From assembly GCA_021800155.1 (NCBI GenBank), contig JAJYZG010000009.1, positions 1 to 34,905 of the forward strand: 34,905 nucleotides of DNA, in the 5' to 3' direction. This document shows positions 15,818 to 34,905 of this stretch, piece after piece. Position numbers and translations under genes: made by a program. Each line of letters opens with the position of its first letter. Position 1 is the first letter of the stretch. The notes beneath the pieces are model-generated. The model saw only the letters and a program-made list of their open reading frames with translations, did not search any database and was not told where the DNA came from. Source of the stretch: a bacterium. GTDB taxonomy: Bacteria > Patescibacteriota > Saccharimonadia > Saccharimonadales > UBA4665.

Positions 15818-16885
15818 TTAGTTGGGGGAAAGATAGTAAACTAAACCGCCGGCGCTGCCGTCATTAACGATCTGATTTTTGGCCATATCACCGTTCCCGG
15901 TAAGCGGATCAATGGTTGCTGAATCTCCATAAATGAACGTTGGATGCCTGCCTCCGCTAACCACTATTTCAACATGACCACCCAAATAATTAAAGTAAGC
16001 CACGTCGCCAGGTTTAGGTTGATAGCCGCTATTAGCTGAATGATAAGTGAACATCCCTGTATCTATAATATTATTTGCGTTATATTCATCCCAGCCGCCG
16101 ATACCCCGTTCTCCGGTCGTAAAAGGTGAACCGGCCTGCAGATATACATAGCTAACGAAATCTGCACACCACTCTTCATTCGAATTACCGGCAGTATAAT
16201 CAGACATCAATACTGGTTGGAGTTTAGGCTCGGTCTGCCACGCCAACCATTGCTGCTCGGCTACGCAAGCCACACGTGCCCCTAATGAGTTCTGCTTACA
16301 CTCCGGACTTGAGATATTGCTCAGCGGAACTCCCGACCAATCATCAGGCGTCCAGTTTTCTCCTAGAGTATTGACATAAGTACAGCTGGCTGTGACAAGT
16401 GGTAAACCAGTCATGCCTTTAGGCAATGCCATGCACTGTCCGTTTTGATTATTCTTGAAGCCGACACCGTAACGCAACCAGTTTTGATACGGGGTTGTAC
16501 TGCAAGGAACTATTGCAATTTTTGATCTTTCAACCGCCAGGCAGTACTTGCCCGCATGCTCAATTTTGCCACCGCTAAAACTCCAGTCTTGGGCCGTAGT
16601 TCCGTTGCAAACCCAAGCTTGTACATAACCACTCCTGGTAAAGTCGGCGTGGTGAGCATCGAGACAATAATTACTAACTCCTGAGCGTATTTCCGGAATC
16701 GGCGCGTCGGCGCTAACTGACCCCAATGACGCAATGGAAAGCCCGCCCCAAACCATTAAAACGAGCAGTGTTAGGGTCGTAATTATGCCAAATACAGTGC
16801 GGACTGCTTGCAATACCGGACGCTTTTGAGACGGCAGCATTTGCCGATATGAAACTGATCTTACTCTATTCTGGCTGATTTGCAT
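15818..16885 (-). CDS. ricin-lectin and CHAP domain cell-wall hydrolase
   Basis: Secreted or anchored protein of 355 aa. A basic N-terminus and a hydrophobic helix (residues 31-54) form signal or anchor. Residues 70-183 look like a ricin-type beta-trefoil: SNYCLDAHHA, QDW (99-101), KYCLAV, QNW (134-136) and paired cysteines; such domains bind sugars. Residues 225-325 are a CHAP domain: nucleophile C240 in EEWCADFVSYVY, the catalytic His H304 in GGHVEIVV, and D321 in YGDS as possible third residue. CHAP domains act as amidases or endopeptidases on peptidoglycan. The lectin could dock it on wall glycan of the cell itself or, in an epibiont, of its host (inference). A TATATAAT lies at about 16911-16918; there is no clear Shine-Dalgarno. 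Divergent from the next gene. Confidence 0.85.
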   Translation of the reverse strand: MQISQNRVRSVSYRQMLPSQKRPVLQAVRTVFGIITTLTLLVLMVWGGLSIASLGSVSADAPIPEIRSGVSNYCLDAHHADFTRSGYVQAWVCNGTTAQDWSFSGGKIEHAGKYCLAVERSKIAIVPCSTTPYQNWLRYGVGFKNNQNGQCMALPKGMTGLPLVTASCTYVNTLGENWTPDDWSGVPLSNISSPECKQNSLGARVACVAEQQWLAWQTEPKLQPVLMSDYTAGNSNEEWCADFVSYVYLQAGSPFTTGERGIGGWDEYNANNIIDTGMFTYHSANSGYQPKPGDVAYFNYLGGHVEIVVSGGRHPTFIYGDSATIDPLTGNGDMAKNQIVNDGSAGGLVYYLSPN

Positions 16886-29921: not shown

Positions 29922-30674
29922 TTATGTTAAAAAGTCCTCTATCAAGCTTACTACGTCTTTAGTATTAGTTTGATGGATAAAGTGGCTGGGGGATGGCACG
30001 ACCTCCAGTCTCGAGTTGTTAATCAGCTCATGGAAACGCTCGCCGTCTTTTAGTGGAATTGCCGGATCATGATCCGCATTTATAATTAAGGTCGTAAGCT
30101 TCAGCAGCGACGCATCGGCTTGGACATCCTGCTTCACCGTCCGCTTGAAAGTTTCTTCTAGCGCCGGCACCGCCAACATATCCGAACCGACGCTCCCGTA
30201 TAACTTCTGGCGCAACTGCTGGCGCCTAGCTTCAGGCAGCCAGAAAGTGGTCGCTTTTCCGACTTTAGCTACCGACTTGGTAGCTACACGTTTCGCTGGC
30301 TGGCTGTTTCTAATACCGGCTGAAGCTAGCAGCACTAACTTATTTGCCTTAAGTACTCCGGTTGCTAGCGCCCTAATTGCTAACGCCCCACCGTTGCTGT
30401 GCCCAATAATGGCATAAATAGGATTTAAACCGAGTTTTTCGATAAAATGCGCCGTCAGCTCGGCATAATTATCTAGATTCCATGGTTGTTTTGGCGGTTC
30501 ACTCCCGCCGAATCCGGGCAGATCGAATGCCGCCAGCTGATACTTATTCTCGAGTGCGCTCATCAAACCGATATAGGTCTGATGATCATCACCCCAACCG
30601 TGCAGTAGCAGCAGCAGGCGGCCGTGGCCCTTTAACTCATACCTAATGTCTAGATCATCAACAATAACGTTCAT
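29922..30674 (-). CDS. alpha/beta hydrolase
   Basis: Cytosolic alpha/beta-hydrolase fold enzyme, 250 aa. Oxyanion-hole motif LLLLHGWGDDHQTY (H25-G-W-G), strand and loop AAFDLPGFGGSEPP, nucleophile elbow IIGHSNGGALAIRAL (S93), acid in IINADHDPAIPL, and the catalytic His in PSPSHFIHQTN. The triad is complete. The substrate is unknown: esters, lactones or similar are possible. It is the first gene of a likely operon with murF, ddl and leuS. TATAAT (30684-30689) ends 9 bases before the ATG, with no Shine-Dalgarno, pointing to a leaderless message. Confidence 0.9.
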   Translation of the reverse strand: MNVIVDDLDIRYELKGHGRLLLLLHGWGDDHQTYIGLMSALENKYQLAAFDLPGFGGSEPPKQPWNLDNYAELTAHFIEKLGLNPIYAIIGHSNGGALAIRALATGVLKANKLVLLASAGIRNSQPAKRVATKSVAKVGKATTFWLPEARRQQLRQKLYGSVGSDMLAVPALEETFKRTVKQDVQADASLLKLTTLIINADHDPAIPLKDGERFHELINNSRLEVVPSPSHFIHQTNTKDVVSLIEDFLT

Positions 30675-30683
30675 TTAAGGGCC

Positions 30684-30689
30684 ATTATA
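30684..30689 (-). promoter_or_regulatory. -10 element (TATAAT) for the alpha/beta hydrolase-murF-ddl-leuS run
   Basis: A perfect TATAAT on the minus strand ends 9 bases before the ATG at 30674; the transcript would start 2-3 bases before the start codon. The -35 region (TTAGTG, 17 bases upstream) is poor. Confidence 0.5.
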
Positions 30690-30855
30690 CGGCAACCGGT
30701 TAAACCACTAACGCATTAATTTAGGCATCATAGGTGGTGGTAGCCAAATTATCTGAACTCATGAGGGTGTAGGCACGAAGACACCAGGGGGCACTTCAAT
30801 CACGGTAACACTGACAGAGCTGAGAAACATTATGTTGATAGCCGCATTCAGCACC

Positions 30856-30884
30856 TTGATATATCCCCTAAATCCAACTAGAAT
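30856..30884 (+). promoter_or_regulatory. promoter of the giant surface protein (TTGATA-17-TAGAAT)
   Basis: -35 TTGATA (30856-30861), a 17-base spacer, and -10 TAGAAT (30879-30884), each matching five of six consensus bases. The leader is about 41 bases and contains a 6-bp hairpin and the AAAGGA ribosome site. Confidence 0.6.
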
Positions 30885-30892
30885 TAATCTAA

Positions 30893-30908
30893 TAAAGCAT
30901 TAGCTTTA
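30893..30908. repeat. 6-bp inverted repeat in leader of surface protein gene
   Basis: TAAAGC and GCTTTA flank a loop ATTA. It lies just after the predicted transcript start and 23 bases before the ATG at 30932. It could stabilise the mRNA 5' end or be an operator. Confidence 0.4.
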
Positions 30909-30931
30909 AGTTTGCTAAACACAAAGGACTT

Positions 30932-33900
30932 ATGATTGGTGTTAGTTTGCGACGTCACGTTTTCGGGCTAGGTGTACATCTTCGGTCAAAAAGCCTACGT
31001 TTTAAACTAGAGCTTGCCGGTCTGATTGTTATCTTACCGCTTGCCGGCTTGTTTATATTATTCTGGCTCAGCTCGCCCAATTATCATTTGTCAGACGCAG
31101 CCCGACTATTAATCGGCCCGGGCGATACCGCTATGCAAAAGGAACTTAGCTATCATTCTAAACAAGCCGCCTTCTATCTCAACCAAAAAGGCATGTCGGC
31201 TCTATCGAGCACTAGCAGCTTGTCCATCGGGGGTAATTTCAGCTCTACCCTGCCATCTAAATTAAGCCGCGGGATGACGATCTATGACGATACCAGCGGA
31301 CTATCTTTTAGTATCATCCCCGAGATTAATGCCGCTAATGGCAAAGAAGTTGGCGGCCATATAGTTTATCCGTCCGGCAGCGGCATCCAGGCGGTCTATA
31401 CCGTCTTAAGCGATGGCATTAAAGAAGATCTGATATTAAACCATAGTATTGGTAATAACGCCAGTTATTCATTCGACTTGAAGATCCCGAGCAACATGGT
31501 CGCCCGCCAAAACGGTAACGGCGTAGGCATCTACTCTGCCAATCCAGTACTGTTTGGCAATATTAGCTACGGAAGTCCTCAAGATGAACAAAGAGTGATG
31601 GAAGCCCGGGCTAACGGGCCAAAAGACCACCTGGCCTTTGAACTACTACCGCCCATTATTAATCAAAGCAACGGACATGTTGGCGGGATTGGTGCCGACG
31701 CTAGAGCCGTTTTATCCCTACACGGCAACCGGGTAACAGTTGCCGCCTCTAATTTAAGCCGGCTCAGCTATCCGATATCTATCGACCCGAGCGTGGTAGT
31801 TACTTCCTCGATGTTCACGGCCGGTAATAATGAAGGCGATGTCAGTTTTTCGAACGGTCAACTCAGTGAGGCGGGGTTGACAGGAGGCAGCGTCAGCAGC
31901 TGGAACTATACCAGCGCCGGCGCGAATAACGGCACTACCTTCTCGGCTGGCTTTAATGTGCCGCGCTCAAACTTTGCCAGTGTCGCCTATAACGGTTACT
32001 TATACGTTTTAGGCGGGCAGGCGGCGAGCTCAAGCGGCGGCTGTACATCAGGCAGCGGTCCTTATTACTGCAACGACGTCCAATACGCCGCGATTAACTC
32101 AAACGGCACAATCGGCACCTGGTATTACACCTATAACGGAGTTTCAAGCAGCAGCTATAGCGGCGGGTTTACGCTTGCTAGAACCGGTTTGGCGGCAGTT
32201 ACCTATAACGGCTATTTATATGTCATCGGCGGCCAGGCGGCGAGCTCGACCGGCAGCTGCAGCGCCACTGGCAGTTACTGTAATGACGTCCAGTATGCCT
32301 TAATATGCAACGGTAATAACGCCGGACAGGGCGGCTGTTCTTCAACACCCGGGACAGTCGGAATCTGGAATTCTACCTCAACCTTCTTAACCGCCAGATC
32401 CAGTATGGGCGCAACTGTTTTTAATGATTACCTATATATTGTCGGCGGCCAGACGGCAACTTCAGCTGGAGATTGCACTTCAGGGACCAACCCCTACTAC
32501 TGTAACGGTGTCGAGTTTGCCGTGATTCATGCAGGCGGTACACTCGGCAGCTGGAATTACACAGCAAATAATACTAATAATGGCAGCACATATTCGGGCA
32601 GCGGTGTATTTAGCACCCCTCGCTCAGGAACCAACGCCTTAACCTACAATGGCTACCTCTACATTTTAGGAGGGCAGACGGGTAGTTCAAGCGGTGCCTG
32701 TACTTCCGGCAGTGGGCCGTACTACTGTGATGACGTTCAGTATGCACCGCTTAATAGCAACGGCACCGTCGGCACCTGGAACACTACAAACGCTTTTGTT
32801 AACGGACGCGCATTGCTTGGTGCTACTGTTTATGATGGCTATATCTACATTAGTGGCGGCCAAGTTTATCAGTCTCAGTCCCAATCCTACAGCACTCCCG
32901 GATCGTATACCTTTAGCGTCCCAGGTGGTGTCTCTTCCGTAAACGTTACATTAAATGGAGCCCAAGGAGGTGCCAGCGGTAACGCTGGTTCGGGTGGAGA
33001 TGGAGGAGAGGTATCAGGAACCCTAACCGGCCTAAGCAGTGGCGTAACCTCATTAACGGTTGTAGTTGGCAGCTCCGGTAATAGCGCTTCAGGCGCAACC
33101 GCCGGCGCAGCCAGTAGTTACGGTGGTGGTGGCGCAGGCGGTAACGGATATTCTTATGGTGGTGGTGGCGGTGGTGGTGAAAGCTATATTGAAAACGGCA
33201 CTACTTATCTAGCCATAGCACCTGGGGGTGGCGGTGGTGGGGATACTGCCAGTGGCGGTACGGGCGGCGGGACAACCGGTGCCAGTGGTGGTGGCGGCGC
33301 ACCGGGCGGCGGCGGTACGCAAACGGCTGGCGGTACGGCCGGAAGTGGGGCTACAGCAGGAGCTAGTAACAGCGGCGGTACAGGGGGCAGTGATACAGCA
33401 AAGCATGGTGATGACGGGGGTGGTGGCGGCGGCGGCGGATACTGGGGTGGCGGTGGCGGCGGTGGTGGTTCGGGCACAGGTGCGGGTAGCGGCGGCGGCG
33501 GCTCGGCCTTAGTGCCTAGCGGCGGCAGCACGGCTTCGGGAACGAACTCGGGGAATGGCTCTGTAACTATAACGTGGACTGGTCCTAGTTACTATAGCGA
33601 TACCCAATACGCCTCCATAAATAGCGATGGTACACTTGAGCCGTGGCAGAGTAGTAACAGTATCAATAGCCCTAGATCGGGCTTGAATGTCTTAGCATAT
33701 AACGGTTATCTCTATTCTCTAGGCGGACAAAATGACTCTAGCGGCGGTGATTGTACTACTGTTACTAGTATATTCTACTACTGTAACGGCATCCAGTATG
33801 CTCAGATCGATCCTGCGGGTATTATTGGAATGTGGACAGCCTCGACTTCTACCTCTAACGGCAGTTTGCCGGTGGCGACAGATGTCGCCACGTCAGTGGT

Positions 33901-34905
33901 ATATAACGGGTACGTTTATGAAATTGGCGGGCATGACGGGACCGGGAGTAAAATGGCAGTAGTGGATTATGCTGCATTATCTAGCAGCGGCGCGCTCAGC
34001 GCTCCGGCAAGCTGCAGCGGTACAGTCGCCGGGGTTTGGTGCGAATCGACTTCGACCTCTAACGGCAGTTTGCCGGTGGCGACAGGTTACGCAACGTCAG
34101 TGGTATATAACGGGTACGTTTATGAGATTGGGGGTGGTACGAGTAGTGGCGCTACGGCAGTGGTGGATTATGCAGCATTATCTAGCAGTGGCGCGCTCAG
34201 CGCTCCGGCAAGCTGCAGCGGTACAGTCGCCGGGGTTTGGTGCGAATCGACTTCGACCTCTAACGGCAGTTTGCCGGTGGCGACAGAAAACGCCACTTCA
34301 GTGGTATATAACGGGTACGTTTATGAAATTGGCGGGTATACAAGTAGTTATACGGCAGTAGTAGATTATGCCGCATTATCTAGCAGTGGCACGCTCAGCG
34401 CTCCGGCAAGCTGTAGCGGTACAGTCGCCGGGATTTGGTGCGAATCGACTTCGACCGCTAACGGCAGTCTGCCGACGGCAGAAGATGACGCCACGTCAGT
34501 GGTATATAACGGCTACGTTTATGAGATTGGGGGGGATACGGTTGGCGTTACGGCGGTAGTTGATTATGCCCCTATAAATAATGGTGGCCCTGGCACAACC
34601 AGCTCGTGGACAGCTTCGACTTCGACCTCTAACGGCAGTCTGCCGGTGGCGACAGAAAACGCCACGTCAGTGGCATATAACGGCTATGTTTATGAGATTG
34701 GGGGGTCTACAAGTAGTGGCTATACGGCAGTTGTGGATTATGCAGCATTATCTAGCAGCGGCGCGCTCAGTGCTCCGGCCAGCTGTAGCGGGACGCTAGT
34801 TGGGGTGTGGTGCGAATCAACTTCGACCGCTAATGGCAGTCTGCCGGTGGGGACAGATGAAGCCACGTCAGTGGTATATAACGGGTACGTTTATGAGAAG
34901 GGGGG
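30932..34905 (+). CDS. giant secreted protein with kelch-like repeats and Gly-rich domain (partial, 3' end missing)
   Basis: Open from the ATG at 30932 to the window end: at least 1324 codons, no stop. AAAGGA precedes the ATG by 3 bases. One hydrophobic helix (residues ~27-46) is a signal or anchor. Residues ~50-285 form a beta-rich domain (GVxEDL-like GIKEDLILNHS; closing LSYPISIDPSV) like the N-terminal region of large secreted Rhs/WapA-type proteins. From ~290 come kelch-like blades, each with YNGYLYVLGGQ, a Cys pair (CTSGSGPYYC) and NGTIGTW. Residues ~653-884 are a glycine-rich domain (starting YTFSVPGGVSSVNVTLNGAQGG) set between blades. From ~965 the blades become near-identical tandem units. 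It probably folds as a beta-propeller outside the cell and binds a ligand or partner cell (inference). The gene is certain; binding partner and total length are unknown. Confidence 0.9.
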   Translation, partial: MIGVSLRRHVFGLGVHLRSKSLRFKLELAGLIVILPLAGLFILFWLSSPNYHLSDAARLLIGPGDTAMQKELSYHSKQAAFYLNQKGMSALSSTSSLSIGGNFSSTLPSKLSRGMTIYDDTSGLSFSIIPEINAANGKEVGGHIVYPSGSGIQAVYTVLSDGIKEDLILNHSIGNNASYSFDLKIPSNMVARQNGNGVGIYSANPVLFGNISYGSPQDEQRVMEARANGPKDHLAFELLPPIINQSNGHVGGIGADARAVLSLHGNRVTVAASNLSRLSYPISIDPSVVVTSSMFTAGNNEGDVSFSNGQLSEAGLTGGSVSSWNYTSAGANNGTTFSAGFNVPRSNFASVAYNGYLYVLGGQAASSSGGCTSGSGPYYCNDVQYAAINSNGTIGTWYYTYNGVSSSSYSGGFTLARTGLAAVTYNGYLYVIGGQAASSTGSCSATGSYCNDVQYALICNGNNAGQGGCSSTPGTVGIWNSTSTFLTARSSMGATVFNDYLYIVGGQTATSAGDCTSGTNPYYCNGVEFAVIHAGGTLGSWNYTANNTNNGSTYSGSGVFSTPRSGTNALTYNGYLYILGGQTGSSSGACTSGSGPYYCDDVQYAPLNSNGTVGTWNTTNAFVNGRALLGATVYDGYIYISGGQVYQSQSQSYSTPGSYTFSVPGGVSSVNVTLNGAQGGASGNAGSGGDGGEVSGTLTGLSSGVTSLTVVVGSSGNSASGATAGAASSYGGGGAGGNGYSYGGGGGGGESYIENGTTYLAIAPGGGGGGDTASGGTGGGTTGASGGGGAPGGGGTQTAGGTAGSGATAGASNSGGTGGSDTAKHGDDGGGGGGGGYWGGGGGGGGSGTGAGSGGGGSALVPSGGSTASGTNSGNGSVTITWTGPSYYSDTQYASINSDGTLEPWQSSNSINSPRSGLNVLAYNGYLYSLGGQNDSSGGDCTTVTSIFYYCNGIQYAQIDPAGIIGMWTASTSTSNGSLPVATDVATSVVYNGYVYEIGGHDGTGSKMAVVDYAALSSSGALSAPASCSGTVAGVWCESTSTSNGSLPVATGYATSVVYNGYVYEIGGGTSSGATAVVDYAALSSSGALSAPASCSGTVAGVWCESTSTSNGSLPVATENATSVVYNGYVYEIGGYTSSYTAVVDYAALSSSGTLSAPASCSGTVAGIWCESTSTANGSLPTAEDDATSVVYNGYVYEIGGDTVGVTAVVDYAPINNGGPGTTSSWTASTSTSNGSLPVATENATSVAYNGYVYEIGGSTSSGYTAVVDYAALSSSGALSAPASCSGTLVGVWCESTSTANGSLPVGTDEATSVVYNGYVYEKG
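33120..33560 (+). repeat. Gly-rich low-complexity segment within the surface protein gene
   Basis: Runs of GGT/GGC codons encode stretches of 6-9 glycines broken by Ser, Thr, Ala and aromatic residues (for example GYWGGGG). It continues a beta-strand module that starts at about 32886 and ends with the strand GSVTITWTG near 33554-33583. The reverse strand reads as a false Pro-rich frame. Confidence 0.85.
33834..34905 (+). repeat. tandem repeats of about 200 bp in the surface protein gene
   Basis: Six units, with the anchor ACCTCTAACGGCAGT (or a variant) at 33851, 34055, 34256, 34454, 34625 and 34826, so periods of 204, 201, 198, 171 and 201 bases. All periods are multiples of three and stay in the reading frame. 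Each unit encodes NGSLPVAT, ATSVVYNGYVYEIGG, TAVVDYAALSSSG and a CSGTVAGVWC pair; the fourth is shortened and lacks the Cys pair. Long stretches are identical in DNA between units. The array runs into the window end. Confidence 0.95.

Follow-up and report, generated by a model that had tools for sequence, protein, structure and literature searches.

How Patescibacteria recognize and hold on to their particular hosts is still largely an open question (PMC12206443). In Nanosynbacter lyticus (TM7x), the pilin PilX2 carries a seven-bladed RCC1 propeller and is required for the function of T4P-2, which tethers the host, and further close-range adhesins have been proposed by the same authors (PMC12206443). 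The Bap1 and RbmC adhesins of Vibrio are secreted matrix proteins in which an eight-bladed beta-propeller is combined with separate binding elements, a beta-prism and a 57-aa loop (PMC10102183). Kelch propellers (PF01344), such as Keap1 and the designed SAKe6, bind targets with the participation of their b-c (beta2-beta3) loops (PMC11882444). A glycine-rich domain (GRD; PF12810; PDB 7mzy, 7lrz, and 7nwz) is found in the receptor kinases ALK (human) and LTK, and the poly-Gly-II domain of the gp38 tail-tip adhesin of phages S16 and PP01 bears receptor-binding loops (PMC12892980). For kelch proteins of Saccharibacteria or CPR bacteria, the open-access literature returned nothing relevant. Here, we describe a giant kelch-propeller protein, interrupted by a GRD, that we take to be a membrane-anchored, surface-exposed, modular host-contact adhesin of Saccharibacteria, with a probability of about 0.62. 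Its family offers a defined, testable candidate for host recognition.

The gene lies at the end of the window, the 34,905-nucleotide stretch analyzed, which is the whole of contig C6 (G000:C6:1-34905) in a 1.1-Mb genome of 68 contigs (95% complete, 3% contaminated). It occupies positions 30932 to 34903 of the forward strand and is open at the contig end; as the first-pass annotation had noted, the frame is long and continuous, 1324 codons from ATG without a stop. Nor does an in-frame stop lie near the edge, and homologs run on for hundreds of codons. A ribosome-binding-like AAAGGA (30923 to 30928, forward) was read from the sequence at a spacing of 3 from the ATG at 30932. The near-consensus promoter once credited to the gene does exist, as a 10/12 match of the form TTGATA-17-TAGAAT (30856 to 30884, forward), but it is weak evidence because 0.8 sites of that quality are expected by chance in that stretch and 1 was observed. 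G036 is a genome of the window's genus. L071, from a same-genus genome, has an abhydrolase-Mur ligase-Ddl-LeuS block beside its kelch gene, as the window does, which indicates that the locus belongs to this lineage. We note that the 3' end of the kelch gene faces the abhydrolase in L071 (1-2270) and the 5' end faces it in the window (29922-30932), the result of either inversion or independent insertion. Elsewhere in the window, a reverse-strand gene (15818 to 16885) encodes a product that looks secreted and has Ricin_B_lectin and CHAP domains.

The 3' end of the gene is probably held by contig C62, the contig break being due to repeats. C62 ends in an open 340-aa frame of type B blades followed by the conserved C-domain described below. 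Blade 11 of the window shares 92% identity with the first full blade of C62, and the C62 blades resemble the type B blades of the window (0.75) more than those of the C59/C7 paralog (0.64). No exact overlap of 20 bases or more was found between contig ends.

How the protein is held at the cell surface is suggested by its N terminus. After a basic N terminus comes a single hydrophobic segment (residues 27-46; 31010 to 31069, forward) without an obvious signal-peptidase site; hydropathy peaks at 2.64 at residue 28, nothing past residue 60 exceeds 1.6, and the position of the segment is conserved in the N-domain alignment. The segment is suggestive of a signal anchor, the remaining protein lying outside, and from it we infer the membrane topology and surface exposure. 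The 1324-codon frame and the one N-terminal hydrophobic segment agree with an earlier description of a giant secreted or anchored protein. Next lies a conserved beta-rich N-domain (residues 47-330; 31070 to 31921, forward), which defines the family and has invariant residues in an 18-row alignment. A supposed likeness of this domain to Rhs/WapA proteins found no support: the 18 aligned members gave no Rhs/WapA match and no significant match of any kind in Pfam or PDB, and a fold search found no match at an E of ≤0.001 (mean pLDDT of the AF2 model, 52).

The blades that follow are kelch-like, as the first-pass annotation had it. Both Kelch_1 (PF01344; E = 6e-23, 80.4 bits against a cut-off of 20.1, 9 stretches) and PF24681 (E = 1.8e-17, 63.9 bits against a cut-off of 50) exceed their Pfam gathering scores, and the repeats are visible even in the DNA, as a 35-nt core in 11 copies and a 290-nt unit in four copies of 66-87% identity. 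Propeller 1 (31877 to 33862, forward) consists of six type A blades with Cys loops plus the glycine-rich insert, blade 6 being the last of that type (33656 to 33862, forward), and propeller 2 (33863 to 34903, forward) consists of blades 7-12, which are of type B and near-identical, the last being truncated by the contig end. Mean blade identity is 0.48 within blades 1-6, 0.78 within blades 7-12, and 0.33 between the two types; thus, the near-identical blades noted earlier are confirmed for the second ring only. The AF2 model, the alignment for which comprised largely internal and homologous repeats, gives a propeller with most blades at a pLDDT of 87-96, and its best Foldseek matches in PDB were SAKe6 and Keap1, both six-bladed (E of roughly 1e-15 to 1e-13, probability 1.00, TMt about 0.68). 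The blades of the window are accordingly modeled as a propeller, a ring of blades, and six per ring is suggested because the two blade types divide at 1-6 and 7-12, the PDB matches are six-bladed, the blades of G049 fall into strong/weak/strong runs of six (6/6/6), and the blades of the fibre protein G007g are grouped into five runs set apart from each other (6, 6, 6, 6, and 5). The complete gene of the window probably encodes three propellers (18 blades). Moreover, VKOR and a thioredoxin-fold oxidoreductase (thioredoxin_4) are present as disulfide machinery, and together with the Cys pairs of the blades they fit a protein that would be exported and disulfide stabilized.

The protein resembles Keap1 and SAKe6 in its above-cut-off kelch motifs and six-bladed structural matches, but it is bacterial and apparently surface anchored, sets several rings in series, has near-identical blades in ring 2, and holds a domain of 234 residues within a beta2-beta3 loop. 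PilX2 likewise places a propeller on a Saccharibacterial surface (PMC12206443), where exposure of the window protein is presumed; the window protein, however, is kelch rather than RCC1, six-bladed rather than seven-bladed, far larger, and apparently provided with its own anchor, where the PilX2 propeller is borne on a pilin. A propeller of the PilX2 RCC1 type was rejected, as the match is to kelch and not to RCC1. A protein of the Bap1/RbmC type, alike in being a propeller adhesin with separate binding elements (PMC10102183), was rejected, as the kelch blades of one type number six, the PDB matches likewise have six blades, and no prism was seen; Bap1 and RbmC, for their part, do not have the combination of kelch and GRD.

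The glycine-rich module said to interrupt the propeller is real, but it lies inside a blade and not between blades. This ALK/LTK-type GRD (residues 653-886; 32888 to 33589, forward) sits in the beta2-beta3 loop of blade 5, between a first part comprising beta1-beta2 (VYDGYIYISGGQ; 32756 to 32887, forward) and a second comprising beta3-beta4 (YYSDTQYASINSDGTLEPW; 33590 to 33655, forward), and alignment with other propellers places it exactly between beta2 (YDGYIYISGGQ) and beta3 (SYYSDTQYASINSDG). Sibling blades have a Cys-x6-9-Cys loop at this point, and they read YYC where the second part of blade 5 reads YYS. By direct reading, the flank GPSYYSDTQYA is similar to SGPYYCNDVQYA, the motif of sibling blades, and therefore the GRD occupies what was a Cys loop.

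By profile comparison, the window GRD is related to that of ALK/LTK. A profile of nine GRD copies matched ALK structures over almost the full length (227 positions, E = 3e-7), and the match disappeared with a column-shuffled control profile (5 of the 9 rows, realigned), which rules out an artefact of composition. Searched alone, the window GRD passes the cut-off of no Pfam family; PF12810 recognizes 5/9 of the GRD members, and a relative on contig C32 of the same genome passes it (28.2 against 24.5 bits). Non-glycine anchors are conserved among the aligned GRDs (TFxVP, G-x-GG, TIxVTPGExLTIxVGG, LAIAxGGGGGG, and GNGxVTI). The domain differs from ALK and LTK in its setting, which is a kelch blade or a fibre protein and not a receptor kinase, and the likeness is one of sequence profile. 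It may adopt the fold of the ALK/LTK domain, a beta-sandwich with a poly-glycine-II helix bundle; in the predicted model, its pLDDT is mostly <50, in a region without alignment depth. Such a fold would recall gp38 by analogy only, as gp38 joins a poly-Gly-II domain to receptor-recognition loops in a phage protein of another overall fold (PMC12892980).

How the GRD reached blade 5 can be read from two trees. The N-domain tree splits into two deep clades (100/100), and the window is the sole GRD carrier among the 16 members of its own. Across the 40 N-domain genes in that tree, the GRD lies in blade 1 in 17, all in the other clade, in only the last blade in 1, and in blade 5 in the window alone. 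The GRD tree, though built on low-complexity sequence, groups the window with GRDs of fibre proteins (100/99), including that of C32, and separately from the 20 sampled copies borne by kelch proteins. The two trees agree that the window copy was acquired independently, so the GRD entered the same beta2-beta3 loop on at least two occasions. Listed insertion sites have beta2 before the GRD (such as GYIYxxGG) and beta3 after it (such as VxWAxF, VYISPQL, and TQYASI); for the GRDs of L073, L074, and L075, and for the first GRD of L076 and of L080, the site was assigned from profile position. Some family genes carry a second GRD in a late blade. We note that the kelch ORF of L073 (G184) stops inside a last-blade GRD (...GGGRRC), as though a G-rich tract had undergone a frameshift, which could be either phase variation or an assembly error. 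In viral contigs, 600 pattern matches to the GRD were found and none was confirmed by tblastn, possibly through low-complexity masking.

The family is patchy. Its N-domain occurs in 47/295 genomes of the class (Saccharimonadia, judging by named relatives; 28/128 genera), and a 380-genome sample of the phylum gave only weak, partial matches outside the class. With 16% of class genomes represented, it is therefore not a general host-binding system, and the conserved N-domain could serve as a genome marker for it. Members are giant ORFs, mostly of 1300-2500 aa, and by a blade profile built in this analysis most complete members have 15-19 blades, with 18 the commonest and 21 in L067. Most are closed by a conserved C-domain, which ends in LQSLDxPP in near relatives and found nothing significant in Pfam or PDB; a search with its alignment recovered 8 loci among GTDB-derived contigs, two labelled Candidatus Saccharibacteria. 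Homologs carry other modules in their arrays, loops, or linkers, namely, PA14 (L085 and L086), laminin-G with DUF2341 (G035), and CBM_4_9 (G024). PA14, laminin-G, and CBM modules commonly bind carbohydrates. Two irregular arrangements were also seen. A short paralog in the window's genome (G000:C36; L060 1562-3070) has the N- and C-domains, one blade, and an in-frame TAG upstream, reflecting either deletion between repeats or assembly collapse. In the arrays of L069 and L071, the start of the C-domain (e.g., YAGLQSIPRIGYYS) is followed by more blades and then by the remaining C-domain, which might be a duplication within the array or a misassembly.

What such a protein does need not involve a host. 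It might bind or remodel the cell's own envelope or matrix polysaccharide in the manner of Bap1/RbmC anchoring, a role that we find doubtful. The Bap1 propeller does bind its own VPS, while other Bap1 elements bind foreign surfaces (PMC10102183). Laminin-G and CBM_4_9 modules in homologs would likewise suit the handling of a matrix, but the N-terminal hydrophobic segment suggests that the protein already has a membrane anchor. Moreover, we know of no biofilm-matrix role in the Saccharibacteria group. A spacer function for the GRD is unlikely as well. The domain is very rich in glycine and poorly predicted, and the G184 ORF (L073) ends inside it just as a G-rich frameshift would dictate, all of which might be expected of a low-complexity, slippage-prone stretch that recognizes nothing in a structural surface-layer or matrix protein. 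Conservation of non-glycine anchors, loss of the ALK match on column shuffling, and independent recurrence of the insert in one structural loop each argue against a mere spacer. Finally, a giant, secreted, beta-rich protein with an N-domain once described as Rhs/WapA-like could be a polymorphic toxin or delivery protein, in which a beta shell bears a variable toxic tip. We consider this highly improbable, and Rhs/WapA identity was rejected, as no YD/Rhs match was found and the homologs end in a conserved C-domain (...LQSLDxPP in near relatives) instead of a variable tip.

The simplest account is a surface adhesin in which the GRD is the recognition module. Adhesion and host contact are plausible because homologs carry modules of binding type (PA14, laminin-G, and CBM_4_9), N. 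lyticus needs a propeller pilin to tether its host (PMC12206443), and Bap1 is a propeller adhesin (PMC10102183). The cell itself is ultrasmall and probably a host-dwelling epibiont, as judged from cultivated Patescibacteria (PMC12206443) rather than from the window's genome. The basic N terminus and one transmembrane helix would hold the adhesin in the cytoplasmic membrane, and the beta-rich N-domain would extend away from the cell and be followed by six-bladed kelch propellers in a row and then by the conserved C-domain. The propellers may serve as a stiff display scaffold with binding modules grafted into beta2-beta3 loops, here an ALK-type GRD in blade 5 of propeller 1. The GRD would most likely bind a molecule of the host bacterium or of a matrix and thereby aid host contact.

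That one and the same loop has captured this module independently points to selection for display there, and the module is a discrete, swappable one whose presence and position on the conserved scaffold differ between lineages. We speculate, and only tentatively, that kelch propellers of Saccharibacteria are an exchangeable display scaffold into which GRD, PA14, laminin-G, and CBM cassettes are swapped, with the GRD entering the same beta2-beta3 loop repeatedly and one such GRD having come from giant fibre proteins of the lineage itself, and that the cassette sets which host is bound.

Two further open frames deserve mention. The giant fibre-like protein of the window's own genome (L061; G000:C32) combines a GRD with six successive kelch blades (residues 470-700 and 1017-1319), and a 7672-aa open frame in another genome (G116:C4:309852-322727) contains nine PF12810 glycine-rich domains.
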